Shown piece after piece: positions 43,619 to 55,824 of a stretch of DNA of 64,000 bases. Position 1 is the stretch's first letter. Each line of letters begins with the position of its first letter. The position numbers were made by a program, and so were the translations under genes. Where the stretch lies: contig NZ_FNVQ01000007.1 of assembly GCF_900108065.1 (NCBI RefSeq), forward strand, positions 62,001-126,000, read 5' to 3'. Source of the DNA: Marinobacterium lutimaris (GTDB lineage Bacteria > Pseudomonadota > Gammaproteobacteria > Pseudomonadales > Balneatricaceae). The notes under the pieces are model-generated. The model had not been told where the DNA came from. It did not search any database and saw nothing but the letters and a program-made list of their open reading frames with translations.

Positions 43619-43966
43619 GAAAGAATCAGCCTGAGTGACTCAGGTGATCAGCGCTTATCGGGCAGGCAGGCGTAATCCCAAGGTGAACCTTGTGGAGTGA
43701 GCCTGTCGTCGGAGCGCGGAAGTGTTAGTCATGTGTTGGAGTATTCCAGAGTTTTTCTGACCAGGGAATAGGCCTACAGGCGAAATTTTTGTACCGAGAT
43801 TGACCCTCACATATCAGCGTGGAAATACGGCCTCGGTTACATTCCGGTACACTGGCAGAATCAAGTGCCGCGTTGACTATCGAAAGCCTTCTATTGATGG
43901 TTGGCTATCTATTCTCGGGTGTCGACGTGGCCGTTAATCCCGGTTTTATTCAGAGGAAGCGAAACC

Positions 43967-45430
43967 ATGCGGGTGCAGCAAGGAGCGGAAAATCCGGTTG
44001 CTAATCTGATGACCAACCTGAAGGCGGGCTGCAGGCTGGCGTTCGGCTTTCCTCTGCGCGGTCTTCGTTTTCATTATTCGCTGGGACAGCTGATCGCGCT
44101 TTTTGCGTTGCTAGCTCTTCTACAGGTGGCGCTTGCCTTCTTCACGGTTGATCCACCGCGGGTGTTCAGCCCGTACGGCGCCAACTATCTGGCGGCGGTG
44201 AATCTGCTGGTTATTCTGCTGTTGCTGGTGGTCGCGCGCATGGCCGGTGGCGGCGTCCGAGTATTCGGCCGCACCCTGTTGGCCGTAGCAGCGGCGCAGT
44301 TGCCTATCCTGCTGCTGACACAGCCGGCCAGTGAACTGTTGCTGCGGCTTGAGCTGCCCTACACCTATTACTGGGCCGGGCTGGTCGCGTTCTTCGGCTG
44401 GCAGTGGCTGGTGTTGAGCCGGGCCCTGAAGCTTAATCCCGGCCTGCGCTGGCCGAGGGTGGCGTCGACTGCGGTGCTGTTTCCGCTGGGTTTGCTGGGC
44501 AGCTTCTGGCTGTTCCCGCAGATTCCGCTCTGGTACACCGACTATCCACAGGAGTACAGCGAACCGGCGCCGGAGCTGGATGTGGAAAAGATCTACTACG
44601 CCCAGCCGGAACTACTGGCTGCTGGCCTGTCACGGCTTGAGCCGGGTGAAGCGGGCAAGACCGAACTCTATCTGCTGGCGCTGGGTGGCTACGGTGAGGA
44701 GAACGTTTTCCTCAAGGAAGTGGAGCATGTTCGCGAGCAGTTCGACCGCGACTTCGGCACCGGTTCGCACTCCGTGGTACTGGCCAATAACCCGGCGACT
44801 ACGGAGCGCTATCCGCTGGCCAACGCGCCTAACCTGCAGACGGCTCTGGACGGCATCGCGGCGAAGATGAACCCGGATGAGGACCTGCTGTTCCTGTTCA
44901 TGACTTCCCACGGCAGCCCGGATCATTACTTTTCACTGCAATTGGGTAATCTTGGACTGAACGACCTGACACCTGAGCAGCTGCGCCAGGCGCTGGACAG
45001 GGCTGGTATCCAATGGCGGGTACTGCTGGTGTCCAGCTGCTATTCGGGAGGTTTCGTCGAGGCGCTGAAGTCTCCGCAGACCCTGGTCATCACCGCCGCC
45101 GCTGAAGATCGCAGCTCCTTCGGCTGTGGCTCGCAAAGCGACTTTACCTACTTCGGCGATGCCTACTTCCGTCAGGCGCTGCCGCGGGAGCCGCGTTTTA
45201 TCGAGGCCTTTGATTTGGCTCGCGACTGGGTTACCGAACGTGAGCAAAAGGATGGTTTTACCCCATCCCGACCGCAGCGCTTTGTCGGCACTGAAATAGC
45301 GGCCAAGCTGGAGCTGTTCTATGAGGAGCCCAGTATCAGGGAAACCATCGAGCTGGCCGAGCGTAGCGAAGCGTGCAGACTTGATACCGGGCGCAGGCCC
45401 TGTAGTCTGGAAGCAAATAAAGAGCGCTGA
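43967..45430 (+). CDS. Membrane-anchored C13-family (legumain-like) cysteine peptidase
   Basis: A 487-residue protein with two parts. Residues about 35-200 hold five to six hydrophobic helices (LIALFALLALLQVALAFF, VNLLVILLLLVVARMAGG, TAVLFPLGLLGSFWLFP). The C-terminal 270 residues contain the caspase-fold dyad of clan CD: His315 in FMTSHGSPDHYF and Cys358 in VSSCYSGGFVEA. Family C13 includes legumain and GPI8. The active site would be periplasmic or cytoplasmic depending on topology; an even number of helices after a cytoplasmic start places it inside. I chose the ATG at 43967 for its AGAGGA upstream. Substrate unknown. Confidence 0.85.
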   Translation: MRVQQGAENPVANLMTNLKAGCRLAFGFPLRGLRFHYSLGQLIALFALLALLQVALAFFTVDPPRVFSPYGANYLAAVNLLVILLLLVVARMAGGGVRVFGRTLLAVAAAQLPILLLTQPASELLLRLELPYTYYWAGLVAFFGWQWLVLSRALKLNPGLRWPRVASTAVLFPLGLLGSFWLFPQIPLWYTDYPQEYSEPAPELDVEKIYYAQPELLAAGLSRLEPGEAGKTELYLLALGGYGEENVFLKEVEHVREQFDRDFGTGSHSVVLANNPATTERYPLANAPNLQTALDGIAAKMNPDEDLLFLFMTSHGSPDHYFSLQLGNLGLNDLTPEQLRQALDRAGIQWRVLLVSSCYSGGFVEALKSPQTLVITAAAEDRSSFGCGSQSDFTYFGDAYFRQALPREPRFIEAFDLARDWVTEREQKDGFTPSRPQRFVGTEIAAKLELFYEEPSIRETIELAERSEACRLDTGRRPCSLEANKER

Positions 45431-45591
45431 TCGGCAGAACCTTCTTGGCAGAGACATCTTTTTTTCGCTGCCGTGCGTACCCATAGATTAGAGATAGCCT
45501 GATTTAGATACACCGAGCGGCCGCCGACAGTTCCGGCCGCAGGCACAGGCTCAGGCTCTTATTAAGAAAGAGACAGAGACAGAGGGTGAAC

Positions 45592-46458
45592 ATGAGCTAC
45601 AAACAACTGACGCCGCAAGAGCAGTACGTGATTCTGCACAAAGGCACCGAGCGTCCCTTCACCGGAAAATACGACGACTTCTTTGCAACCGGCGTGTACA
45701 CCTGCAAGCAGTGTGGAGCACCGCTGTACCGCTCGGAAGACAAGTTTCCCTCCCACTGTGGCTGGCCCAGCTTCGATGATGAGATCGAGGGCGCCATCCG
45801 TCGTGAAGTGGATGCCGATGGCCGCCGCACCGAGATCCTCTGCGCCAACTGCGACGGTCACCTTGGCCATGTGTTCGAAGGCGAGATGCTGACCCGCAAG
45901 AACGTGCGCCACTGCGTCAACTCCATCTCCATGGACTTTGTCAGCGCCGAAGAGCTGGCCGAGAAAGTGGGCGGTACGCTGAAGAAAGCCTACTTCGCTG
46001 GGGGCTGTTTTTGGGGCGTTGAACATCTGCTGCAGCAGGTGCCGGGCGTGGTGTCCGTGGTCTCCGGCTACATGGGCGGTCATGTGGAAAACCCCAGCTA
46101 TGAGCTGGTGTGCACCAAGACGACCGGCCATCTGGAAACGGTTGAAGTGCTGTACGACGCCGGCCAGACCGACTTCGAGACCCTGGCCAAGCTGTTCTTC
46201 GAGATCCACGATCCTACCCAGGATAACGGCCAGGGGCCGGATATTGGGCCGCAGTACGCTTCTGCCATCTTCGTTAACGATGATGAGGAGCGCGGTATCA
46301 GCGACAAGCTGATCGCGCTGCTGGAGAACAAGGGGCTGAACGTGGTCACCCGCGTGCTGCCGATGCAGACCTTCTGGCGCGCCGAAGAGTTTCACCAGGA
46401 CTACTACGTGCGCACCGGCAAAGCCCCATACTGCCACAGCTACCAGAAACGGTTCTGA
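45592..46458 (+). CDS. Fused methionine sulfoxide reductase MsrB-MsrA
   Basis: A 288-residue bifunctional enzyme that repairs both methionine sulfoxide stereoisomers. Residues about 1-125 are MsrB with two zinc CxxC pairs (CKQCGAP, CANCDGH) and the catalytic Cys in [11 protein letters not shown]. Residues about 133-288 are MsrA with [15 protein letters not shown]. The order is B then A, as in several bacteria. No signal peptide is present, so the protein is cytoplasmic. I chose the ATG at 45592, with AGAGGG upstream. Its stop overlaps the arfB start by one base. Confidence 0.94.
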
Positions 46459-46874
46459 TGCTGGAGGTTTCACGTAGCGTCCATATTCCGGACGATGAGA
46501 TAGAACTGACCGCCATCCGCGCCCAGGGCGCTGGCGGTCAGAACGTCAACAAGGTCTCCAGCGCTATCCATCTGCGTTTCGATATCCGCGCCTCGTCGCT
46601 GCCCGAATTCTACAAGGAGCGCCTGCTGGCCCTGAGCGATAACCGCGTCAGCCAGGAGGGCGTGGTGGTGATCAAGGCGCAGCAGTTCCGCACCCAGGAA
46701 AAGAACCGCCTGGATGCGCTGGACCGGCTGCGTGAACTGATCCAGAGCGTGACCAAGGTACAGAAGGCGCGTAGGCCCACTAAACCCACGCGCAGCTCTC
46801 AACGCAAGCGGATGGATAAGAAAACCAAACACGGTAAAACCAAGTCGATGCGAGGCCGGGTGAAGGATTTCTGA
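46458..46874 (+). CDS. arfB: Alternative ribosome-rescue factor B (peptidyl-tRNA hydrolase)
   Basis: A 138-residue protein like YaeJ/ArfB, which frees peptide from stalled ribosomes lacking a stop codon. The GGQ motif is in [17 protein letters not shown] (about residues 21-37), and the C-terminal tail is basic ([20 protein letters not shown]), as needed to enter the mRNA channel. The ATG overlaps the msrBA stop by one base (TGATG), so translation is coupled. Co-expression of oxidation repair and ribosome rescue is seen in other gammaproteobacteria too. Confidence 0.93.
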
Positions 46875-46883
46875 TCGAGCCAC

Positions 46884-47642
46884 TCAGGGCTTCTGCTGCA
46901 GCAGTTCACCACCACCGGCCAGCAACTGGCCCTGGAGCCGGCTCGACAGGGGCGCGTCGGTGACCACCAGGTCATACTGTTCCAGCTGGCCGGCGCTACA
47001 GGGGGCGCTGTTGTCGAACTTGCTGCTGTCGATCAGCAGAATATGGAAACGGCTCTGTTCCAGCATCGCTTCCCGCGCCATCACCTCGTCATCGTTGTAA
47101 TCGAATAGCCTGCCGCTACTGTCCATAGCGCCCACTGAGGTGATGGCGATATCGGCGTGATAGCGCTGGAAAAAGCGCAGCGCATCGCCGCCGATCACAT
47201 CCTGATCCCGCAAACGGACCCGGCCGCCGGCCACCGTCAGCGCGCAGTCCTGGTGTTCGCAGAGCAGTCGCGCGGCGTGCAGGTTATTGGTGTACACCTG
47301 CAATCCCCGCAGTGGACCCAACTGCGCCGCCAGTTCCGCAAGGGTGGAGCCGGTGCCGAGAAAAACACTCTGAAAACCGTTCAGCCAGGTGGCGCAGAGT
47401 TCGCCGATTTTGCGTTTGCCCGCTGCATTCCTTATGCGGCGCTGGTCGTAGCTGATGTTTTCCCGGTGCGGAAAGGGCATCACCTCGCCGTGGTTGCGCA
47501 ACACCAGCCCCTGCTGCGCAAGGATGCGCACATCGGTGCGGATCGTCTGCACCGAGACATCAAAAGTATCCGCCAGCTGCTGCAGCTCGGTGCGGCCGCG
47601 AGTGTTGACCAGTTCGGTAATGGCCAGTCTTCGTTTGTGCAT
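46884..47642 (-). CDS. DeoR-family regulator of the phosphoester-type operon
   Basis: A 252-residue regulator: MHKRRLAITELVNTRGRTEL, then HTH FDVSTVQTIRTDV-like segment (DTFDVSVQTIRTDVRILAQQ), and a sensor domain with SVFLGTGSTLAELAAQL, VYTNNLHAARLL and ILLIDSSKF. The ATG at 47640-47642 has AGGAC upstream; the frame is open 11 codons earlier. It is divergent from the ABC operon at 47781, and the 138-bp gap carries paired AAACGAAAG repeats, a likely operator. The ligand probably is a phosphorylated metabolite by family analogy. Confidence 0.9.
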   Translation of the reverse strand: MHKRRLAITELVNTRGRTELQQLADTFDVSVQTIRTDVRILAQQGLVLRNHGEVMPFPHRENISYDQRRIRNAAGKRKIGELCATWLNGFQSVFLGTGSTLAELAAQLGPLRGLQVYTNNLHAARLLCEHQDCALTVAGGRVRLRDQDVIGGDALRFFQRYHADIAITSVGAMDSSGRLFDYNDDEVMAREAMLEQSRFHILLIDSSKFDNSAPCSAGQLEQYDLVVTDAPLSSRLQGQLLAGGGELLQQKP

Positions 47643-47661
47643 TAAATCTGTCCTTTTTACC

Positions 47662-47730
47662 AGCGAAAGCGGCAATGGCGATAAAACGAAAGCAATAAGC
47701 GTTGAAACGAAAGTTGGCTGTCATTTTCGT
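47662..47730. promoter_or_regulatory. CGAAAG repeats, candidate DeoR operator
   Basis: AAACGAAAG occurs at 47684-47692 and 47705-47713, 21 bp apart (two helical turns). A third half site GCGAAAG lies at 47663-47669 and an inverted TTTTCGT at 47724-47730. DeoR/GlpR-type operators often have such TTTCG/CGAAA half sites. The gap separates the divergent regulator and ABC genes. Confidence 0.6.
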
Positions 47731-47780
47731 GTAAGAACATGACATTACCTTTTCACCATCGAGTTTAAGGAGGTGAAGAG

Positions 47781-48761
47781 ATGCTGAAGAGAAACCTGCT
47801 GATTGCTGCGATTACCGCCGGACTGTCCCTGCCGCTGCTGGCCCAGGCCGATGACAAACTGGTGCTCTACACCAGCCAGCCCAACACCGACGCCCAGGCA
47901 ACGGTAGACGCGTTTAACGCAGCCTATCCGGAGATCGAGGTGGAGTGGGTGCGCGACGGCACCACCAAACTGATGGCGCGCCTGCGTGCCGAGCTGCAAA
48001 GCGGCGCCTCCCGCGCAGACCTGCTGTTGATCGCAGATAGCGTCACCATGGAATCGCTGAAGCAGGATGGCTACCTTCAGCCTTACCTCAGTGGCCAGCG
48101 CGAACACTACGATGTATCCCTCTATGAGCCCCAGGGGTACTACTACGGCACCAAGCTGATCACCACCGGGATAGTGCGCCACCAGCGTGCGGCCGAAGCG
48201 CCGCAGAGCTGGGCCGATCTGGCCGGTACCGAATACAAGGGGCAGGTGGCAATGCCGAGTCCCCTATACTCCGGCGCAGCGCTGATTCACCTGGCCACGC
48301 TCACTTCCAATCCGGATCTGGGCTGGGATTACTACCAGTCACTGGCTGACAACGAAACCCAGGCTCAGGGAGGTAACGGCGGCGTGCTTAAGGCCGTTGC
48401 GTCCGGCAACAAGCCCTACGGCGTGATCGTTGATTTCCTTGCCATCCGCGAGGCGGCCAAAGGCTCACCGATCGAGTTTGCCTTCCCCACCGAGGGCGGC
48501 AGCATGGTGACCGAACCGGTGGCGATCATGAAAGACGCCAAGAACCTGGATGCGGCGCAGAAGTTTGTCGACTTCGTGCTCTCTGAAAAGGGCCAGCAAC
48601 TGGTGCGTAGCCAGGGTTATCTGCCGGCCAGCGATCAGGTGGAACCACCAGAAGGCTTCCCGGCCCGCAGCGAGATCAAACTGATGCCGTTCGATGCAGC
48701 CGATGCGCTTGAAAATGCCGAGGCCAACAAGGCTCGTTTCAGCGAAATCTTCGGCGGCTGA
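47781..48761 (+). CDS. Periplasmic binding protein, AfuA/Fe3+-like class
   Basis: A 326-residue binding protein. The signal peptide MLKRNLLIAAITAGLSLPLL ends near AQA. The mature part DDKLVLYTSQPNTDAQATVD continues with VEWVRDGTTKLMARLRAELQ, then AMPSPLYSGAALIHLATLT and FPTEGGSMVTEPVAIM, the pattern of AfuA/FbpA-type binders. The AfuA family has been shown to bind sugar phosphates, while FbpA binds ferric iron with Tyr residues; the iron Tyr pair is not evident. TAAGGAGG stands nine bases before the ATG. It heads a six-gene operon. Confidence 0.88.
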   Translation: MLKRNLLIAAITAGLSLPLLAQADDKLVLYTSQPNTDAQATVDAFNAAYPEIEVEWVRDGTTKLMARLRAELQSGASRADLLLIADSVTMESLKQDGYLQPYLSGQREHYDVSLYEPQGYYYGTKLITTGIVRHQRAAEAPQSWADLAGTEYKGQVAMPSPLYSGAALIHLATLTSNPDLGWDYYQSLADNETQAQGGNGGVLKAVASGNKPYGVIVDFLAIREAAKGSPIEFAFPTEGGSMVTEPVAIMKDAKNLDAAQKFVDFVLSEKGQQLVRSQGYLPASDQVEPPEGFPARSEIKLMPFDAADALENAEANKARFSEIFGG

Positions 48762-48765
48762 TCCG

Positions 48766-50466
48766 ATGTTGCGTGCACTCTCCGGTGACCAGCCCCGCTG
48801 GCTGGTCGCCCTGATCCTTTCCCTGATCGTTCTGCTCAGCCTGACGCCGAGCCTGCGCCTGATGGTCGAAGCGCTGAGCCAGCTGGAGCTTGGCAGTGAG
48901 TCGCCACTGGCGCGGGTGCTGCGTGATGGCGCCACCTGGCAGGCGGCCTATCACAGTCTCTATACCTCCGGCCTGGCCACGCTGATTGCGCTGGTGCTGG
49001 GCGCGCTGTTCGCCTGTGCCTTGTCGCTGACCAATGTCTCCGGTCGTCAATGGCTGGTGTTCTGCTTCATGCTGCCGATGATGATTCCACCGCAGGTGAC
49101 GGCGCTGAGCTGGTTGCAGCTGTTCGGACCGAGCAGCCCGTTGCTGAATTCGTTAGGAATCGCTCCGGCGCTGGGTTCACCCCAGCCGCTTTATTCCGCC
49201 GAGGGCATCGCCCTGCTGATGGGGATTCAGCATGCGCCGCTGGTGTTTCTGACGCTGAGATCCAGCCTGATCAATATGCCGGCGGAGCTGATCGAGGCGG
49301 CACGGATCAACGGCGCCATTCAGCGCCGGGTCTGGCTCGATGTGATATTTCCGCTCTGCCGCAGTGGTCTGGCGGCGGCGGCGGCCATCGCCTTTGTCTC
49401 GGCGCTGGGCAACTTTGGTATCCCCGCCATGCTGGGGATTCCCGCCTCCTACTACGTGCTACCAACGCTGATCTACCAGCATATGGCGGGTTTCGGCCAG
49501 AGCATGCTCAGCGATGTGGCGGTGCTTTCCATGCTGATCGGTGTGCTGGCGCTGATCGGCGTGCTGGTGCAGCAGCGTTTTGTGCGCCGTGCCCAGTACG
49601 AGCTGCTAGGCCACACCGGCCGCGCCCAGGCTTTTGTGCTGGATAGCCGTCATCGTCTGCTGTTGCAACTGCTGCTCTGGACGGTGCTGGCGCTGATCCT
49701 GGTGGCGCCGCTGATCGCCCTGATCATCAGCTCCCTGGTGCCGGCGCTGGGCGTCGCACTGAATAGCGATACCTTCACCCTGAGTGCCTACGTGGAGATG
49801 CTGACGCGTCAGGGCTCCACCGCCCGTGCCTTCGGCAACAGCCTGCTGCTGGCCAGCGGTGCTGCGCTGTTCCTGATGTGCCTGAGCCTGCCGCTGGGCT
49901 GGATGATGTCGCGCATGTCGGTGCGGGCCCGCACCAGCCTTAACAGCCTGATCGAGATTCCCTACGCGCTGCCGGGTGTGGTGCTGGCGATCGCCTGCAT
50001 CCTGCTGTTTGCGCAGCCGCTGCCGCTGATCGAGGTAAGCCTGTACGGTTCGCTGGCGATCATCTTCGTCGCCTATCTGGCCCGCTTTATGAGCATCGCG
50101 CTTAAGCCGGTGCAGGCCAGCGCCGGGCAGCTCGATGGCTCGCTGGAAGAGGCGGCACAGCTCGCCGGGGCCGGGCCTTTGCGCCGACTGGTGCAGATCG
50201 TGCTGCCCTTGGTCGCACCGGCGCTGTTTGCCGGAGGTCTGCTGGTGTTTCTCACCGCAGTGAACGAACTCACTGTATCGGCGCTGCTGTGGAGTGCCGG
50301 TAACGAGACGCTTGGCGTGCTCGTATTCAACCTGGATGAGGGCGGCGACAGCGTGCTGGCCGCTGCCATCTCCGTCGTAATCGTTTTGATGGTGGTCGCG
50401 CTGATGCTGTTACTCAGCCTGATGGGGCGCTGGCTACCGCAAGGAGTTATACCTTGGCGAACCTGA
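48766..50466 (+). CDS. Fused two-domain ABC permease
   Basis: A 566-residue inner membrane protein made of two permease halves, each with about six helices. Coupling motifs are LIEAARINGAIQRRVWLDVIFP in the first half and LEEAAQLAGAGPLRRLVQIVLP in the second. Such a fusion is typical of FbpB/AfuB and ThiP-type transporters. I chose the ATG at 48766, four bases after the binding protein stop. Its stop overlaps the ATPase start by 13 bp. It uses one polypeptide where the 36931-40667 importer uses two. Confidence 0.88.
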   Translation: MLRALSGDQPRWLVALILSLIVLLSLTPSLRLMVEALSQLELGSESPLARVLRDGATWQAAYHSLYTSGLATLIALVLGALFACALSLTNVSGRQWLVFCFMLPMMIPPQVTALSWLQLFGPSSPLLNSLGIAPALGSPQPLYSAEGIALLMGIQHAPLVFLTLRSSLINMPAELIEAARINGAIQRRVWLDVIFPLCRSGLAAAAAIAFVSALGNFGIPAMLGIPASYYVLPTLIYQHMAGFGQSMLSDVAVLSMLIGVLALIGVLVQQRFVRRAQYELLGHTGRAQAFVLDSRHRLLLQLLLWTVLALILVAPLIALIISSLVPALGVALNSDTFTLSAYVEMLTRQGSTARAFGNSLLLASGAALFLMCLSLPLGWMMSRMSVRARTSLNSLIEIPYALPGVVLAIACILLFAQPLPLIEVSLYGSLAIIFVAYLARFMSIALKPVQASAGQLDGSLEEAAQLAGAGPLRRLVQIVLPLVAPALFAGGLLVFLTAVNELTVSALLWSAGNETLGVLVFNLDEGGDSVLAAAISVVIVLMVVALMLLLSLMGRWLPQGVIPWRT

Positions 50467-51482
50467 TTCTGGATAACGTCAGCAAGCATTTTGGCGATCA
50501 GCCCGCGGTGGACCGGCTAAACCTGTCGATCGAGCCGGGCGAGTTTGTCGCGCTGCTGGGGCCGAGCGGCTGCGGCAAAACCACCATGCTGAGGATGCTG
50601 GCGGGCTTTGAAAATATCACCGGCGGTTCCATCCGTCTGGGCGGTCAGTTGCTGGCGGGGGAGGGTGTGCATCTGCCACCGGAACAGCGCCGCATGGGCA
50701 TGGTGTTCCAGTCCTACGCGCTATGGCCGCACATGAGCGTGGCGCAGAACGTGGGCTATCCGCTGAAGATGCAAAAGCTCGCCGACAGCGAGCGCAAACG
50801 CCGCATCGGCGAGGCGCTGGAAGCAGTGCAACTGACGCACCTGGCGGATCGGGCGCCGAAAGATCTTAGCGGCGGTCAGCGTCAGCGTGTGGCGTTGGCG
50901 CGCTGCCTGGTGACCGAACCGGACGTGGTGCTGCTGGATGAGCCGCTGGCCAACCTGGACCGCCACCTGCGCGCATCCATGGAAGAGGCGTTTCGCGAAT
51001 TCCATCGCCGTACCGGTGCCACGATGATCTATGTCACCCACGACCAGGCCGAGGCGATGTCTTTGGCGAGTCGTATCGCGGTGATGAATGCGGGGCGTCT
51101 GGAGCAGTGGAGCACGCCACAGGAACTCTACACCTACCCGCGCAGTGAATGGGTGGCCGGCTTTATCGGCCAGGGTGGCGTGGCGCCTGTACACGGTGTC
51201 AGTGCCGGCATGGAGCTGGGCGAAGAGGCATTGCTTAAGGGGCTTTCCTCCGACGTCGGCGCCGCTACACCAGTGCTGATCCGTCCCCAGGATGTGCGCG
51301 TCAGCGAGCGCGGTATCGCCGTGGACGTGGCCGAGTCGATCTATCGCGGCGAGCGCTATGAACTCAAGCTGCGCCTCGCCAGCGGTGCTGAATTGATGGC
51401 CTATCACCACCAGCCACTGCAGGCGGGCCAGCGTGCCGCAGTTCAAATCAGCCGCGGCTGGTCACTGGAGTCCACGCGGTGA
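50454..51482 (+). CDS. ABC ATPase of the phosphoester-type importer
   Basis: A 342-residue ATPase: Walker A LGPSGCGKTTMLRMLAG, signature [19 protein letters not shown], Walker B VVLLDEPLANLDRHLRAS, and switch His YVTHDQAEAMSLASR, with a TOBE-like C-terminal domain (LIRPQDVRVSERG). The start is TTG (50454-50456) with AAGGAG nine bases upstream and lies within the permease gene. The stop overlaps the GTG of the MBL gene by 4 bp (GTGA). The tight overlaps couple transport to the downstream hydrolases. Confidence 0.92.
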   Translation: MANLILDNVSKHFGDQPAVDRLNLSIEPGEFVALLGPSGCGKTTMLRMLAGFENITGGSIRLGGQLLAGEGVHLPPEQRRMGMVFQSYALWPHMSVAQNVGYPLKMQKLADSERKRRIGEALEAVQLTHLADRAPKDLSGGQRQRVALARCLVTEPDVVLLDEPLANLDRHLRASMEEAFREFHRRTGATMIYVTHDQAEAMSLASRIAVMNAGRLEQWSTPQELYTYPRSEWVAGFIGQGGVAPVHGVSAGMELGEEALLKGLSSDVGAATPVLIRPQDVRVSERGIAVDVAESIYRGERYELKLRLASGAELMAYHHQPLQAGQRAAVQISRGWSLESTR

Positions 51483-52558
51483 GTGCAAGGCTTGAGATCC
51501 TCAGTGGCCTGGGTGGCAAGGCGCCGGCGGCTTTGCTGCTGGAAACCGCGACTGCCCGCATTCTGATTGAGGCCGGCGGTGCACTGGAGCCGGGTATGGA
51601 GATCGACTGGGAGCTGCCAGAAGATCGACCGCTGGATGCGGTGGTGATCACTCACGACCATGTGGACCATATCGGCGCTGCTGACATGCTGCCCGCGGGC
51701 GTCCCAGTTTATGCCACTGAACCTGTAGCCACGGCCCTGCCTGACTATCTGCAACACCGACCGCTGCCGTTGAATGGTGAGCTGGAGATCGCCGGTATCC
51801 GCGTGCGCTGCGGACAGGCGGGCCATTCGCTGGGTGGAGTCTGGCTGCACTTCGATATCGGCGGCGGGCTGTTCTACAGCGGAGACTATTCACTTGAATC
51901 GACTCTGTTCCGCTTTGATCCTCCGCCGCCTGCGGAGCTGGCGCTGCTGGATGCTTCCTACGGCCTCTATGACAACCCCCAGACCGACTGCCGCGCGGCG
52001 CTGCAGGCGCGACTTGAACAACCGACGCTGTTGCCGGTACCCGCCTCGGGACGGGCGCTGGAGATGGCGCTCTGGTTGGATGAGCAGGGGATCGATTGGG
52101 CTATGGATCAGCGCTGCGCCGATCAGTTGGACACACTTAAGTGCCTGCCTGAGGGCTGTTTTCAGCCAGGCGTCAGGGAGAGGTTAGAGCGGCTGTCTGG
52201 CTCAGGTTCGCTGGACCGGAGCCATGTGGCGCTCGTTGGCAGCCCCGAAGGACTGGGCGAAGAAATTGAGCGGCTGATCGCTCGTGGCGACCGGCAGCTG
52301 ATCTACACAGGTTACACGCCGCCAAAAGCGCGTGCCGATGTGGAGGAGGGCCGGGCCAGTTGGCTGCGCTGGAATGTGCATCCGCGCAGCTCGGACCTTA
52401 GACGCCTATCCGACATCCTTGGTGCGCGGCGCACGGTACCGCTGTTTACTGGCCTTGAGCCGCTGACGCGCTGGCGTGCGCTGCTGGGCGATGCGCTTTA
52501 CCTGCCAGCTCAGGGCTGGGCAGCCCGGTCGACAAACGCCGCAATATCTATCGATTGA
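51479..52558 (+). CDS. MBL-fold metallohydrolase (CPSF/beta-CASP-like)
   Basis: A 359-residue metallo-beta-lactamase-fold protein. The metal motif is H59-x-H61-x-D63-H64 in VITHDHVDHIGAADM. Further metal residues are in the QAGHSLGGVWLHF and YSGDYSLESTLF segments. The later TGYTPPKARADVEEG and NVHPRSSDLRRL recall the beta-CASP region of CPSF-type nucleases. Such enzymes cleave RNA or DNA phosphodiesters. The GTG start is inside the ATPase stop. Placement in an import operon suggests action on the imported compound. It is not PhnP-like by these motifs. No signal peptide. Confidence 0.85.
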   Translation: MSARLEILSGLGGKAPAALLLETATARILIEAGGALEPGMEIDWELPEDRPLDAVVITHDHVDHIGAADMLPAGVPVYATEPVATALPDYLQHRPLPLNGELEIAGIRVRCGQAGHSLGGVWLHFDIGGGLFYSGDYSLESTLFRFDPPPPAELALLDASYGLYDNPQTDCRAALQARLEQPTLLPVPASGRALEMALWLDEQGIDWAMDQRCADQLDTLKCLPEGCFQPGVRERLERLSGSGSLDRSHVALVGSPEGLGEEIERLIARGDRQLIYTGYTPPKARADVEEGRASWLRWNVHPRSSDLRRLSDILGARRTVPLFTGLEPLTRWRALLGDALYLPAQGWAARSTNAAISID

Positions 52559-52589
52559 ACCCGTATGGAAAGAACGATTGAGACGACAG

Positions 52590-53171
52590 ATGAGTGATTC
52601 ATTCCCTTTCCCGAGCCAGAGCCTGACCCGCAAACCCTTCGTGTTTATGCGTCACGGCGAGACCGAGATGAATGCCCACAATATCCTCTGCGGAGCCAGC
52701 GATGTGGCGCTGAGCAAGCTGGGGGAGCAGCAGGCGTTGAGCGCCCGTTGGCTGGACAGGCACTGCTGGAGCTGCGTGGCCACCAGCGGCCTTTACCGGG
52801 CGAGGCACACGGCGCATCTGGCGTTGCCGCGGCACCCGCTGTACAGCTTTGAAGGCTTGAATGAACGCCACTGGGGCAGCCTGGAGCTGGCGCCGCTGAG
52901 CGTGCAGACCCCGTACGAGGAAACCCCGCCGGATGGCGAACCCTGGAGCGCTTTTCAGGCGCGTGTACTGAAAACACTGAACCGGCTGCTGGCGGTGCAT
53001 GAGCTGCCGCTGGTGGTGGCGCACTCCGGCGTATACCGCGTGATCCGCGCACTGCAGACGGGTACACCGTACGGACCGCGCATCGATAACGCTCAGCCGG
53101 TTTTGATCGAACCGGTCGAGAACGGCTGGCGCATGACAACACTTGAGGAGAACTGGCTTGAGCAAGTCTGA
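52590..53171 (+). CDS. Histidine phosphatase-family protein
   Basis: A 193-residue enzyme of the phosphoglycerate mutase/acid phosphatase family. The catalytic RHG is Arg21-His22-Gly23 in FVFMRHGETEMNAHN, with TSGLYRARHTAHLAL, LNERHWGSLE (general acid Glu) and the second His in VVAHSGVYRVI. The ATG at 52590 was chosen; the upstream ribosome-binding site is modest (GAGACGA). It starts 31 bp after the MBL gene. The likely role is removal of a phosphate from a small ester; substrates are not predictable within the family. Confidence 0.87.
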   Translation: MSDSFPFPSQSLTRKPFVFMRHGETEMNAHNILCGASDVALSKLGEQQALSARWLDRHCWSCVATSGLYRARHTAHLALPRHPLYSFEGLNERHWGSLELAPLSVQTPYEETPPDGEPWSAFQARVLKTLNRLLAVHELPLVVAHSGVYRVIRALQTGTPYGPRIDNAQPVLIEPVENGWRMTTLEENWLEQV

Positions 53172-53643
53172 TTTAGACATGTCCGTTTTAGGTAAGGCTG
53201 ATACTGTCATCGTGGATGTGGATGGCACCCTGGCGCACTTTGATCCGACCGAGGTGCACCAGTGGGTGCTGGGTGAAAAGAAAGCCTGGGATCCGTTTTT
53301 CGAGCATATGAAACAGGCGCCGGTCATTGAGCCAGTGCGTGCGCTGGTAAGGATTCTGAAATCCCAGGGCCAGCGCATAGTGATCTGCAGCGGGCGTCCC
53401 GATTCACACCGGGAGCACACCCTGGAGTGGCTCGACCGCCACGAGATCCCCTATGACGGCGCATACCTGCGTGCTCTGGGCGATGATGAGGTGGATGACG
53501 AGGCGGTGAAACAGCAGTTGCTGGAACAGATTCGCGCTGATGGTTTCAGCCCCTGGCTGGTGCTGGACGACCGCGATGCGGTGGTGGCGCGCTGGCGTGA
53601 ACTGGGTCTGACCTGCCTGCAGTGCGCGCCGGGCGCATTCTGA
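53158..53643 (+). CDS. HAD phosphatase of the polynucleotide kinase 3'-phosphatase type
   Basis: A 161-residue HAD-fold phosphatase. Motif I is TVIVDVDGTLAHFDPTE (Asp20, Asp22), motif II ICSGRPDSHREHTLEWLDRH, and the C-terminal motif LVLDDRDAVVARWRELGL. This arrangement (SGR then T-x-x-WL and DDR) is that of the phosphatase domain of T4 polynucleotide kinase and its free-standing relatives. TTG at 53158 is the best start, with GAGGAG seven bases before it and an overlap with the preceding gene; an ATG seven codons on (53179) lacks a ribosome-binding site. It ends the operon. Confidence 0.85.
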   Translation: MSKSDLDMSVLGKADTVIVDVDGTLAHFDPTEVHQWVLGEKKAWDPFFEHMKQAPVIEPVRALVRILKSQGQRIVICSGRPDSHREHTLEWLDRHEIPYDGAYLRALGDDEVDDEAVKQQLLEQIRADGFSPWLVLDDRDAVVARWRELGLTCLQCAPGAF

Positions 53644-53665
53644 ACCGCAGAAATGTGGCCGAGAG

Positions 53666-55588
53666 TCAGGCGATCTGAAGCTGGTCGGCGGGGGCCGGCC
53701 GGCCGATAACATAGCCCTGCATAAAACGCACATCCCGGGCCTTGAGGTAGTCGAGGATCTGCTCATCCTCGACAAACTCGGCGATCAGCGGGATATCCAG
53801 GCTGCTGGCAAAGCTGATGATCGCCTCCACCAGCACGCTGGCCTTGTGGTTGCCCAATACCGAGCGGATCAGCGAACCGTCGATCTTGAGATAATCCGCA
53901 TCGATCTTCAGCATATGGTCGAAGTTGGAGTAGCCGCTGCCGAAATCGTCGATGGCGAGCTGAATGCCCGCCTCTTTTAATCGCTTCAGCACCCGCAGCA
54001 CCTCATCCTGGTAACCGATCGATTCGGACTCGATCACTTCGATAATCAGCCGTCCCTGCAGACCCTGATGCTCATATTCCCGCAGCAGGTAATTGATGGT
54101 TTCCTCGTCTATCAGGTCATAGCGGGTCAGGTTGATCGACAGACTGGAGCTGCGCGGCCCGAACAGGCTAAAGCTCTGGTCGATGATGGCGCAGGTGAGC
54201 TGACGATAAAGGTGGCTTTTGCGTATCACCGGAAGAAAGTGAAACGGAGTGTGCACCCTGTTTTCGCCGTCGAGAAGACGGGCCAGGGCCTCGTAATGAC
54301 GCACCTGGCCGGTGTTGGCGTCGAGGATGGGCTGAAACCAGGGCTGGACGCGATTGTGGCGAAACGCCTCGTTGATCTCATTGAGCCAGTGAAGGTTGGT
54401 CTCGTAGCGATTCTCCGGTCGCAGCGCCTCGTTGAATACCACCAGGGCGCGACCGTTGCGCGACGCTTCATCCATCGCTTCGCGGGCGTCGTGCTGCAGG
54501 CGCACCGGGTCTTTTTCATTCAGGACAATGCCGGCGCGGGCGGTCAGCGTGATGCGGCGTTGATCATCCGCCTTGATCGGTTCGAAGACGCTGGCCAGTA
54601 AACGTGAGGCCAGGTTGGACGCGCGGCTCTCGTCGTAACCGCGCAGCAGAATGAAATACTCATCCACCTGCGACCGGTACAGGGTGGTGTCGGCCGGCAG
54701 CTGCGCGCGTAGCGCTTCGGCGACCTGGAACAGCAGATGGTCGCCGACATCGTAGCCAAACAGGGTGTTGACGGCGTGAAACTCGTCCAGGTTGATCAGA
54801 ATGCCGCCCATCGGCTGTTCGTTCTCGGCCAGGTCCGCCTCCATTTTCGCGATGCGCGGCAGGCCGGTGATCGGGTCGTAGTAGAGCTCTTTTTCCAGCT
54901 CTCTTTCGCGTCGCTGGCGCAGCTGGTGGTATAGGTGCAACAAGGGGTAGATCGGCGCCAGCCCCAGCAGCGAGACCAGAGCGGCCAGTTCCAGACTATG
55001 CATCAGCAGGGTGTTTGGACCGTCCACCTTCATATCCGCAGCCATAACGAAATAGGAGCCGTCGGAACGCTGGGTCGGTACAAAGGCGGAGCGAAAGGTG
55101 CCCCATTCGTTGGTGTAGACTGGTGTGAAGATGGCGGTTTTCGAGTGGTACGCCTCAAACAGCTCTTCGGGGGCAGAGCCGTAAGGATTGTAGAAAGTGC
55201 TCGGGGTGCCGCGCTGCAGATCCAGGTGGGTCTCATTGCTGACGATAAAGAACGCCTTTTCTCCAACCACATCCATGGAGTAAACGTACTCCACATCAGG
55301 CAGGTCGGCGACCAGCTGATCCAGGGTCGCAACGATCATGCGGTACTGTGCCTGGCCAGGCTCACGGTTGAGGCCGTACAGGTCGTGAAAATAGCGCCCG
55401 ATCAGGTGGCCGCCTGAGCGCGCCGCAGTGAGCAGTGTCGAACTTGTCTGGGAGAGCTGTTCAACCTGGCTGGCGCGAAAGGTCAGCCCGGTCAGTGTCA
55501 GGGTGGCGATAAAATAGAGGATAAAAAGCGTGGCGATGAGGCCACGCTCAGTGCGGAAAAACAGTGCGTATCCTTTGTCTTTTGCCAT
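53666..55588 (-). CDS. Membrane GGDEF/EAL protein with degenerate GGDEF
   Basis: A 640-residue c-di-GMP signalling protein. One helix (LIATLFILYFIATLTLTGL, near residue 20) and a second near residue 210 (LAALVSLLGLAPIYPLLHLY) bracket a periplasmic sensor. A GGDEF-like domain follows in which the active-site motif reads SQVDEYF, so cyclase activity is unlikely. The EAL domain keeps YEALARL, DDFGSGYSNFDHML, and EFVEDEQ with GYVIGRP, so it probably degrades c-di-GMP. The start is either ATG 55588 or GTG 55639; a GAACGGG/CCCGTTC hairpin lies between them. Confidence 0.88.
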   Translation of the reverse strand: MAKDKGYALFFRTERGLIATLFILYFIATLTLTGLTFRASQVEQLSQTSSTLLTAARSGGHLIGRYFHDLYGLNREPGQAQYRMIVATLDQLVADLPDVEYVYSMDVVGEKAFFIVSNETHLDLQRGTPSTFYNPYGSAPEELFEAYHSKTAIFTPVYTNEWGTFRSAFVPTQRSDGSYFVMAADMKVDGPNTLLMHSLELAALVSLLGLAPIYPLLHLYHQLRQRRERELEKELYYDPITGLPRIAKMEADLAENEQPMGGILINLDEFHAVNTLFGYDVGDHLLFQVAEALRAQLPADTTLYRSQVDEYFILLRGYDESRASNLASRLLASVFEPIKADDQRRITLTARAGIVLNEKDPVRLQHDAREAMDEASRNGRALVVFNEALRPENRYETNLHWLNEINEAFRHNRVQPWFQPILDANTGQVRHYEALARLLDGENRVHTPFHFLPVIRKSHLYRQLTCAIIDQSFSLFGPRSSSLSINLTRYDLIDEETINYLLREYEHQGLQGRLIIEVIESESIGYQDEVLRVLKRLKEAGIQLAIDDFGSGYSNFDHMLKIDADYLKIDGSLIRSVLGNHKASVLVEAIISFASSLDIPLIAEFVEDEQILDYLKARDVRFMQGYVIGRPAPADQLQIA

Positions 55589-55824
55589 CTTTGTGGAGAT
55601 GAACGGGTGGAACTGGTCGCCCGTTCTCCTTTCCTTCACGGCCAGAGATTAATCTGTTCATAAAACCACCAGTAGATTAAGGGTACAAGCCCCTTTCTGT
55701 TCAAGTAATGATCGAAAACAGCGTCGGTGGTAAAGCTGTGGCAGATCGGGGGCTGTCTTTTTTGCTGGCGGCTCTGGTAGGGTCATACACCAGTGAAGAC
55801 TAAATAATCATGTTGAGGCGTAGC

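Follow-up and report, generated by a model that had tools for sequence, protein, structure and literature searches.

The window analysed here, a stretch of 64,000 nucleotides from Marinobacterium lutimaris (contig NZ_FNVQ01000007.1), contains six close-packed genes for an ABC importer and three hydrolases, opposite a divergent DeoR/GlpR-type regulator. The question raised by this locus is which compound is taken up and processed by these proteins. On balance, the cassette appears to be an operon of the Pho regulon through which the cell draws on external organophosphate during phosphate scarcity, with a nucleotide-type phosphodiester as the most likely class of ligand.

Organization of the locus

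The regulator gene (46884-47675, minus strand) encodes a protein with both the DeoRC (136 bits) and the HTH_DeoR (45.8 bits) domains of Pfam, which places it in the DeoR/GlpR family; its scores with the NCBIfam models that it matches are all under the cut-offs. The six genes on the plus strand encode a periplasmic substrate-binding protein (SBP, 47781-48761, SBP_bac_6), AfuA/VcA0625-like in sequence and fold; an ABC permease with two BPD_transp_1 stretches (48766-50466, ATG at 48766, longest open reading frame from 48694); an ATPase with ABC_tran and TOBE_2 domains (50454-51482); a metallo-beta-lactamase-fold hydrolase (MBL, 51479-52558, Lactamase_B_2) of the beta-CASP type, a putative intracellular phosphodiesterase; a histidine (RHG) phosphatase of branch 1 (52590-53171, ATG at 52590; His_Phos_1 93.3 bits, alignment A5); and a HAD phosphatase of the PNKP 3'-phosphatase type (53158-53643). 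The last has two candidate TTG starts, at 53143 (longest open reading frame) and at 53158.

Reading frame calls and Pfam confirm the gene set and the facing regulator given in a preliminary description of the locus, as well as the close packing. The ATPase gene overlaps the permease gene by 13 bp, the MBL gene overlaps the ATPase gene by 4 bp and the HAD gene (from 53158) overlaps the RHG gene by 14 bp, with a gap of 31 bp 5' of the latter. The genes had also been called fused in translation; they do overlap, but the proteins are separate and there is no protein fusion. A scan of 53560-53760 revealed no terminator-like site.

Conservation and the variable phosphatases

It is important to know whether the hydrolases belong to the importer, and the co-occurrence check proposed earlier was run across genomes. 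Of 80 related loci selected by the MBL, 76 have the SBP, permease, ATPase and MBL genes in one cluster, and the association exceeds chance. In a sample of 398 genomes, all 17 genomes bearing the MBL carry the SBP and the MBL is absent from every genome without an SBP match; 11 of the 28 SBP-bearing genomes have no MBL at the thresholds applied. The MBL distances track those of the SBP, permease and ATPase (r 0.90-0.92, 40 of 86 loci). The outcome that would have refuted the link, an absence of co-occurrence elsewhere, did not arise. The cassette genes are thus one linked unit, which occurs among Alpha-, Beta- and Gammaproteobacteria and is also carried by some plasmids. A search of E. coli genomes in blastn mode gave no match, and two weak partial matches were seen in phages. 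No description of the cassette was found among the literature matches listed (titles and abstract openings, with subscription journals and bioRxiv mostly outside this scope).

The position after the MBL gene is variable. Among the 80 loci, 20 have only the RHG phosphatase, 33 only the HAD phosphatase and 21 both, while neither was detected in six. The slot can also be filled by a dual-specificity phosphatase, one of which matches PTP-SAK (29 bits, cut-off 27), or by a SurE 5'/3'-nucleotidase, an assignment backed by Pfam on the protein of locus L139. The RHG and HAD enzymes look like interchangeable alternatives rather than two obligatory steps, which corrects the preliminary description. RHG phosphatases, dual-specificity phosphatases and SurE act on other phosphoesters as well. 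The HAD protein is a member of the PNKP-type 3'-phosphatase family, with predicted activity on nucleic-acid ends: HAD_PNKP is matched at 102.4 bits (cut-off 27.6), the profile matches include Pnkp1 and T4 polynucleotide kinase, and the DxD, S/T, K and DD motifs are present. Residues D25, D27, K123, D142 and D143 are invariant and S83 is nearly so. No NCBIfam family was matched at E<=1e-10 by any of 24 HAD members.

Neighbour clustering of 86 loci gave, among the 30 most widespread clusters listed, no extra gene common to most genera. A uridine phosphorylase gene lies near the cassette in six loci, all enterobacterial, along with metE and other genes; this arrangement matches the E. coli gene order and looks like a common insertion site rather than a pathway gene. 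Together with the S-methyl-5-thioribose kinase gene near 25 Halomonas/Vreelandella loci, it gives weak hints only of a nucleotide ligand. Loci without the MBL have other genes near the importer: an EEP-family gene 3' of it in L247-L249 (Pfam on the L247 protein), which counts in favour of the main reading, an inositol-monophosphatase-family gene in L245, and phnF/phnD-like genes in L252 and L253, both of one genus (NCBIfam on L252). The neighbours in L245, L252 and L253, along with the SBP genomes without MBL, suggest that more than one organophosphate may be handled within the clade.

The Pho box and the DeoR-type repeats

A candidate PhoB box, CTGTCAT-TTTC-GTGTAAG (47718-47735, plus strand), lies 45 bp upstream of the SBP start and agrees with the consensus at 11 of 14 positions. 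This direct repeat (seven conserved plus four), which the preliminary description overlooked, is followed at 10 bp by a candidate -10 hexamer, TACCTT (47746-47751, plus strand), an arrangement that fits a Pho-regulon promoter. Similar positions are found in many loci. With a zone of 40-55 bp before the SBP start that was picked, like the -10 offset, after inspection of the sequences, and with many of the loci closely related, a score of at least 9/14 is reached in 68 of 83 loci compared with 58 of 1149 other open reading frames of the same loci, and of at least 10/14 in 50 of 83 compared with 5 of 1149. A TANNNT hexamer stands exactly 10 bp downstream of the box in 54 of the 68, while each other offset from 4 to 16 occurs in at most one. 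At least one locus has a box in the zone in 17 of 25 genus labels and none has it in the other eight. In loci read afterwards, without a matched control, boxes scoring at least 10 were seen in 9 of 11 importer relatives that lack a full MBL (from -250 to +90 relative to the SBP start) and in 6 of 9 plasmid variants newly read (same range, relative to the first gene). The genome itself encodes PhoB (352.7 bits, cut-off 296.2). Its sole exact consensus Pho box adjoins the genes of porphobilinogen synthase and polyphosphate kinase.

Since the Pho box/-10 layout recurs in 17 genera, the cassette is probably a Pho-regulon importer of an organophosphate and not an iron importer. The box makes phosphorus acquisition the likely purpose; PhoB would bind at 47718-47735, and the cassette is apparently switched on under phosphate shortage. 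Proteins named 'PotA/PotD', possible homologues, are listed as PhoB-dependent and induced by phosphorus stress in a Phaeobacter strain (PMC10132767).

The Pho layout recurs beside repeats of another type. Two direct ACGAAAG repeats with a spacing of 21 bp (47686-47713, plus strand) form a candidate operator to which the DeoR-type protein may bind. A divergent DeoR-family gene is present in 57 of 80 related loci, in five of which (Thalassospira) the regulator is closer to the Phaeobacter type. Of the 53 loci whose DeoR is of the type in this window, 41 have at least two CGAAAG copies, compared with none of 23 loci without DeoR and none of six with a Phaeobacter-type regulator. In the M. lutimaris genome this site is the sole exact instance of the pattern, and a search there gave no further regulon member, because sites with up to two mismatches (31) are fewer than those of a reversed-pattern control (57).

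The regulators found with the cassette are of the DeoR/GlpR, LacI and SorC-type sugar-binding kinds, which usually sense sugars or sugar phosphates. This agrees with an alternative in which the same Pho-regulated machine takes up a non-nucleotide phosphodiester (glycerophosphodiesters, inositol cyclic phosphate and sugar phosphodiesters are examples); the beta-CASP fold would then have been recruited for small-molecule diesters. Other evidence on it is discussed below.

The binding protein and its possible ligands

In some records the importer is annotated as an iron or spermidine/putrescine uptake system and the permease as an 'iron ABC transporter'. By sequence, the SBP is nearest to binders of sugar phosphates and pyridoxal phosphate (PLP), with E-values of 1.4e-22 to 3.2e-16 compared with 6.6e-07 for Haemophilus FbpA, and among solved binding proteins the nearest have glucose-6-phosphate or PLP as ligand. 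As these ligands are small, an oligonucleotide as the ligand is doubtful. In the fold search sugar-phosphate binders come first, with iron and metal-citrate binders just behind, some of them at a higher TM-score (FutA1, 0.81).

The permease annotation and the closeness of HitA and FutA1 by fold would suit an Fe(3+) importer that carries unrelated hydrolases along. Iron binders cannot be told apart by the fold search on its own. However, the association of MBL and phosphatase recurs across genera, a Pho box is present, and the sequence stands nearer to the sugar-phosphate and PLP binders than to FbpA. Iron uptake was rejected as the main reading on the first two grounds; an iron ligand is unlikely when the box, the enzymes and the sequence similarity are taken together, and chance passengers behind an iron importer are extremely improbable. 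The Fe(3+) ligands of FbpA include an adjacent tyrosine pair; the SBP region aligned to AfuA H205-D206, read with this pair in mind, is VDFL.

In AfuA the sugar is bound by H205, D206 and E229 and the phosphate is coordinated by S37, T60 and S148-G149-T150. The SBP residues T61, S87 and S164-G165 align with the phosphate-coordinating residues, and T150 is replaced by A166. S87 is the consensus residue among SBP relatives, yet it is outside the list of residues conserved at 90% or more. In the hexose site only D206 is kept, as D218, while H205 and E229 correspond to V217 and V243. With two of three sugar-binding residues different, hexose-phosphate uptake as in AfuABC was demoted. These substitutions, and the beta-CASP nature of the MBL by profile and fold, make it improbable that the cassette imports a sugar-phosphate monoester, the phosphatases dephosphorylating the ligand and the MBL serving for something else (lactone opening, a minor diester). 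That proposal would account for the ligands of the nearest solved proteins, for the phosphatase gene that follows in most loci, and for the low score of the MBL (24.9 bits, cut-off 144) with a general metal-dependent hydrolase model.

The best NCBIfam match of the SBP, below cut-off, is a 2-aminoethylphosphonate family. With the phnS2/PhnU2/PhnT2 models the SBP and permease give their best matches and the ATPase is near its best, and a relative of the importer stands beside the phnF/phnD-like genes mentioned above. A phosphonate importer of the PhnSTUV2/AepXVW type with a PhnP-like MBL is nevertheless very improbable. Every score is far under the curated cut-offs of TIGR03261/03262/03265 (138.6 against 392.75, 183.1 against 593.25 and 305.1 against 457.7), and the neighbour clusters listed, the 30 most widespread, included no recognised phosphonatase or C-P lyase gene.

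The beta-CASP enzyme

Profile matches of the MBL are aCPSF1, CPSF73 and TTHA0252, and the top Foldseek matches of its AF2 model (pLDDT 93.9) are beta-CASP nucleases. In addition to the fold, the HxHxDH sequence, the third His, the Asp and motifs A and B are present. Residues D63, H64, D136, D158 and H301 are invariant (alignment A2). The chain has 359 residues, and Pfam shows no added domain. As modelled, this small protein is of the beta-CASP type, compact and with the RNase J/CPSF73 fold. From its family, a phosphodiesterase activity would be expected.

Motif C of beta-CASP enzymes carries His in those acting on RNA and Val in those acting on DNA. Neither is present in the MBL, where the position is occupied by an invariant F323 (alignments A1 and A2); the MBL type linked to SurE has a His near this column. 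The replacement of His by Phe suggests that the enzyme may not act on RNA, and it is in keeping with the non-nucleotide diester introduced above. So are the inositol-monophosphatase-family gene of L245 and the functional parallel of E. coli ugp with UgpQ (PMC4415409). In S. meliloti, fbpC1, possibly of a related importer, is listed with a neighbouring inositol-phosphate phosphatase (PMC12542648), which would agree with it too. However, the HAD_PNKP match, SurE and the PTP-SAK-like phosphatase point to nucleic acids and nucleotide ends. To our knowledge, the beta-CASP fold occurs only in nucleic-acid processing. A non-nucleotide diester is therefore rather unlikely.

Proposed function

The gene order and its conservation, the protein families, the beta-CASP fold, the Pho box/-10 layout and the swapping of phosphatases are established by computation. 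The scheme put forward in the preliminary description, in which a phosphodiester or nucleotide-like compound is taken up, cleaved intracellularly and dephosphorylated, remains the best-fitting reading and the genes are linked, with the ligand and activities predicted and the two terminal enzymes looking like alternatives. In the order of steps that we infer, PhoB would activate the operon from its box, and the divergent DeoR-type protein on the ACGAAAG repeats would add ligand-specific control. The SBP would capture a small phosphate-bearing ligand, which the ABC complex would import. The MBL would hydrolyse the phosphodiester inside the cell. An interchangeable phosphomonoesterase, here RHG and PNKP-type HAD, would then free phosphate, and the remaining alcohol or nucleoside would enter general metabolism.

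The weakest step of this explanation is the assignment of a nucleotide ligand. A cyclic or linear nucleotide-type phosphodiester (2',3'-cyclic nucleotides and very short oligonucleotides are examples) has a little under an even chance. More tentatively still, the cassette could be a dedicated phosphate-starvation pathway for salvage of degraded RNA or DNA. Its ABC importer would take up 2',3'-cyclic nucleotides or di-/oligonucleotides, a beta-CASP nuclease-fold enzyme recruited for nutrition would digest them intracellularly, and one of several unrelated end-phosphatases would follow. If the proposal is true, it would add a further route of organophosphate acquisition to the three proteobacterial classes and the plasmids named above, and a beta-CASP enzyme working in nutrient acquisition. 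The swappable phosphatases are a natural test set for inferring the ligand.

Comparison with known systems

By analogy, the cassette would work like UgpBAEC-UgpQ of E. coli but is built from different enzymes. The binding protein of Ugp belongs to a different family from the SBP. That system, which imports glycerophosphodiesters and glycerol-3-phosphate and has an intracellular phosphodiesterase, shares Pho regulation (with PHO boxes in ugp; PMC4415409), ABC import and a diesterase encoded with the importer, features that in the cassette are predicted from sequence. The cassette differs in having the MBL in place of UgpQ, phosphatases of its own and DeoR/LacI/SorC-type regulators.

The hexose-phosphate importers AfuABC (A. 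pleuropneumoniae) and VcA0625 and the PLP binder P5PA share the SBP fold, and parts of the phosphate cradle align (G60-T61, S87, S164-G165). They differ in the two hexose residues, and the available parts of their descriptions mention no MBL or phosphatase. PhnSTUV2/AepXVW resembles the cassette in the below-cut-off matches of SBP and permease and in a role in phosphorus acquisition, with scores far below the cut-off and different enzymes.

With aCPSF1, CPSF73, TTHA0252 and RNase J the MBL shares the fold, HxHxDH and motifs A and B; it differs in its short chain, the lack of an added Pfam domain, the Phe of motif C and its place in a nutrient-import operon. The HAD protein is similar to the 3'-phosphatase domain of T4 polynucleotide kinase and Pnkp in the HAD_PNKP profile, catalytic motifs and C-terminal end, but it stands alone, without a kinase or ligase domain, and belongs to an import operon. 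PhnP, the cyclic phosphodiesterase of the C-P lyase pathway, has the MBL fold and is not known to be a beta-CASP protein; no PhnP family is among the Pfam and NCBIfam matches listed for the cassette proteins. The likeness, putative on the side of the cassette, lies in an enzyme of the MBL fold that acts on a small phosphodiester within a Pho-regulated pathway.

Results and Discussion

Region 46884-53643 of the window consists of a DeoR/GlpR-family regulator diverging from six genes that share one strand. The tight packing reported for the six in the preliminary description was confirmed: neighbouring genes overlap by 13, 4 and 14 bp, and the widest gap is 31 bp. The Pfam families found are SBP_bac_6 in the binding protein (SBP), two BPD_transp_1 stretches in the permease, ABC_tran and TOBE_2 in the ATPase, Lactamase_B_2 in the metallo-beta-lactamase-fold hydrolase (MBL), His_Phos_1 in the histidine phosphatase (RHG) and HAD_PNKP in the HAD phosphatase. 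The HAD gene ends 22 bp from a convergent gene (53666-55639), the product of which we take by eye to be a GGDEF-EAL protein. By eye, 45586-46874 presumably holds an MsrB-MsrA fusion, then an ArfB-like peptidyl-tRNA hydrolase gene, and 43901-45430 presumably codes for a membrane protein carrying a C13-peptidase-like domain.

Genome contigs were scanned with a 10-sequence MBL alignment (A1), which gave 242 relatives, and the best 80 loci were retained. SBP, permease, ATPase and MBL occur together in 76 of these 80; a coordinate rule alone counts 74, missing the ATPase that is present in L069 and L071. These loci were chosen by their MBL, so the counts tell how often the importer accompanies the enzyme, not the reverse. 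The four loci without the full set are all from Alcaligenes, and the four Alcaligenes genomes have only distant SBP relatives (best E 4e-42). One or more cassette genes appear to be split in two in six of the 80 loci (L036, L054, L065, L079, L082 and L095). In a phylum sample of 398 genomes, own included, the MBL (E<=1e-30) was found in 17 and the SBP (E<=1e-70) in 28; the SBP is present in all 17 MBL-bearing genomes, and at these thresholds 11 genomes have it without the MBL. Co-occurrence of the hydrolases with the importer in other genomes had been named as a check of the linked pathway, and for the MBL both counts show this linkage to be real. MBL distances follow those of the SBP, permease and ATPase (r 0.896, 0.917 and 0.904; 40 of 86 loci), with none of 999 permutations as high and with shared ancestry contributing.

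The MBL occurs in two of 369 genomes of a class-level sample, the own genome being one. The cassette is patchily distributed, because a full-length orthologue is found in 4/8 genomes of its genus, counting the own genome; the MBL of Marinobacterium mangrovicola is 91% identical to that of the window. In Enterobacter hormaechei (L017) a cassette without HAD lies on a conjugative plasmid near IS elements. In L034 (1-3766) and L051 (11369-15185) the cassette adjoins another importer, distantly related and of the PhnS2-like family.

The best profile match of the MBL is to the beta-CASP group (aCPSF1, 2ycb, 8e-17, then CPSF73 and TTHA0252), of which it is a compact member of 359 residues. Ysh1, aCPSF1 and TTHA0252 are among the solved structures nearest to its AlphaFold2 model (pLDDT 93.9; TMq 0.76-0.79). 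Residues D63, H64, D136, D158 and H301 are invariant in a second alignment (A2), and H59, H61 and H116 nearly so. F323, also invariant in A1 and A2, presumably occupies the motif C position, as assigned by eye against the beta-CASP motifs. The MBL of Alcaligenes endophyticus (L092, 8893-10080) may be inactive, because Gln replaces the metal-site residues H59, H61 and H116; the other three Alcaligenes copies retain these His residues. On a Falsirhodobacter algicola plasmid (L144, 6938-8011) an MBL relative has lost HxHxDH, and no importer was found beside it in the displayed stretch; it is probably a decaying or repurposed copy.

The gene position after the MBL is variable. It holds RHG only in 20 of the 80 loci, HAD only in 33, both in 21, and neither was detected in six. 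In other loci the same slot holds a dual-specificity phosphatase (L022, L136, L137, L128-L130) or the 5'/3'-nucleotidase SurE (L139, L140, L145, L135), with a gene annotated as Na/Pi cotransporter adjoining in L140 and L145 (Pfam run on L145). In the two Alcaligenes loci inspected, L048 and L092, the gene after the MBL is convergent, being Y_phosphatase3 by Pfam in L048; in L019 and L132 a phosphatase after the MBL is absent. Eleven relatives of the importer that lack a full MBL (L245-L255) were also collected. Among them, an Exo_endo_phos-type gene follows the ATPase in L247-L249 (Pfam on L247 only), an inositol-monophosphatase-family gene lies about 1.6 kb past it in L245, L250 has a SurE-like gene and an MBL fragment, and L252 and L253 adjoin phnF/phnD-like genes (NCBIfam on L252). 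RHG and HAD had been proposed to remove terminal phosphates. Varied phosphatases occupy the same place, and therefore the RHG and HAD of the window are more likely alternative or complementary than two fixed steps. On a Paracoccus marcusii plasmid (L142, 12212-13534) a gene annotated as DNA/RNA non-specific endonuclease, on the opposite strand some 0.9 kb past the cassette, may or may not be related to it.

An E. coli Pho box-like motif occurs upstream of the SBP gene across loci. It was scored over 200 bp on both strands as the match to CTGTCAT-N4-CTGTCAT (14 positions), the PHO box being as described in PMC4415409. At least 11/14 is reached in 38/83 loci, as against 21/1096 regions upstream of other ORFs from these loci and 56/4150 shuffled sequences. 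In a fixed zone, from 40 to 55 bp ahead of the start codon, boxes of at least 9 occur in 68/83 loci versus 58/1149 other ORFs and of at least 10 in 50/83 versus 5/1149, and TANNNT stands exactly 10 bp past the box in 54/68 (at most 1/68 at any other offset from 4 to 16), the zone and this -10 offset having been picked after inspection of the sequences, and the loci being mutually dependent. With labels assigned by hand from record titles, the zone contains a box in one or more loci for 17/25 genera. None was found there in Azospirillum, Phaeobacter (where a box scoring 11 lies farther upstream), Paracoccus, Alloyangia (where the first gene is the ATPase, not the SBP), Pokkaliibacter, Litchfieldella, Halotalea and Comamonas. 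Among later loci, which have no matched control, a box of at least 10 occurs in 9/11 importer relatives (L252 and L253 being near-identical) and 6/9 new plasmid variants; some keep the 11-bp phase. The best box is at or inside the predicted start in L247, L250 and L254, and tied between -94 and +19 in L246. The own genome encodes PhoB, and its only exact consensus box (G000 C11:465186-465203, L215) adjoins the genes of porphobilinogen synthase and polyphosphate kinase. At least two CGAAAG repeats precede the box in 41/53 loci with the window-type DeoR, in 0/23 without DeoR and in 0/6 with the Phaeobacter-type DeoR; they are a good candidate for the DeoR operator.

The nearest solved relatives of the SBP by sequence are VcA0625, AfuA and P5PA, which bind glucose-6-phosphate, hexose phosphates and PLP, respectively. 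In the fold search, metal-citrate and iron binders are close behind, some with higher TM-scores. In the alignment, compared with the residues given in PMC4546632 and PMC8427247, T61, S87 and S164-G165 fall at positions of the phosphate cradle and T150 becomes A166; the AfuA sugar residues H205, D206 and E229 correspond to V217, D218 and V243. A small phosphate-bearing ligand is plausible. Hexose 6-phosphate is not supported, because H205 and E229 are replaced by valines.

Phosphate starvation would lead PhoB to activate the operon, with DeoR-type control by ligand or metabolite. The SBP would capture the ligand and the ABC complex import it, the beta-CASP MBL would cleave a diester inside the cell, and a phosphatase would then liberate Pi. 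A nucleotide ligand is favoured, because a nuclease-fold MBL is combined with a PNKP-type HAD, SurE or a PTP-SAK-like phosphatase, each tied to nucleotide or RNA-end chemistry. A glycerophospho- or sugar phosphodiester as the ligand instead is a serious rival. The nucleotide reading is also fitted by two neighbouring genes, which may nevertheless reflect insertion sites. S-methyl-5-thioribose kinase (460.5 bits in L073, cut-off 275) is encoded upstream on the opposite strand in L018 and 24 other Halomonas/Vreelandella loci. Uridine phosphorylase lies downstream in L078 (12130-12891; 522.2 bits, cut-off 262), where metE lies upstream, and in five other enterobacterial loci; it probably represents host gene order around an insertion site, though fitting nucleoside use.

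No earlier account of the cassette in the open literature was recognised among the matches listed, and we rate it as a probable organophosphate importer under Pho control, coupled to intracellular enzymes that were not expected there. It would work like Ugp-UgpQ, the glycerophosphodiester importer and diesterase of E. coli, yet does not belong to that system.
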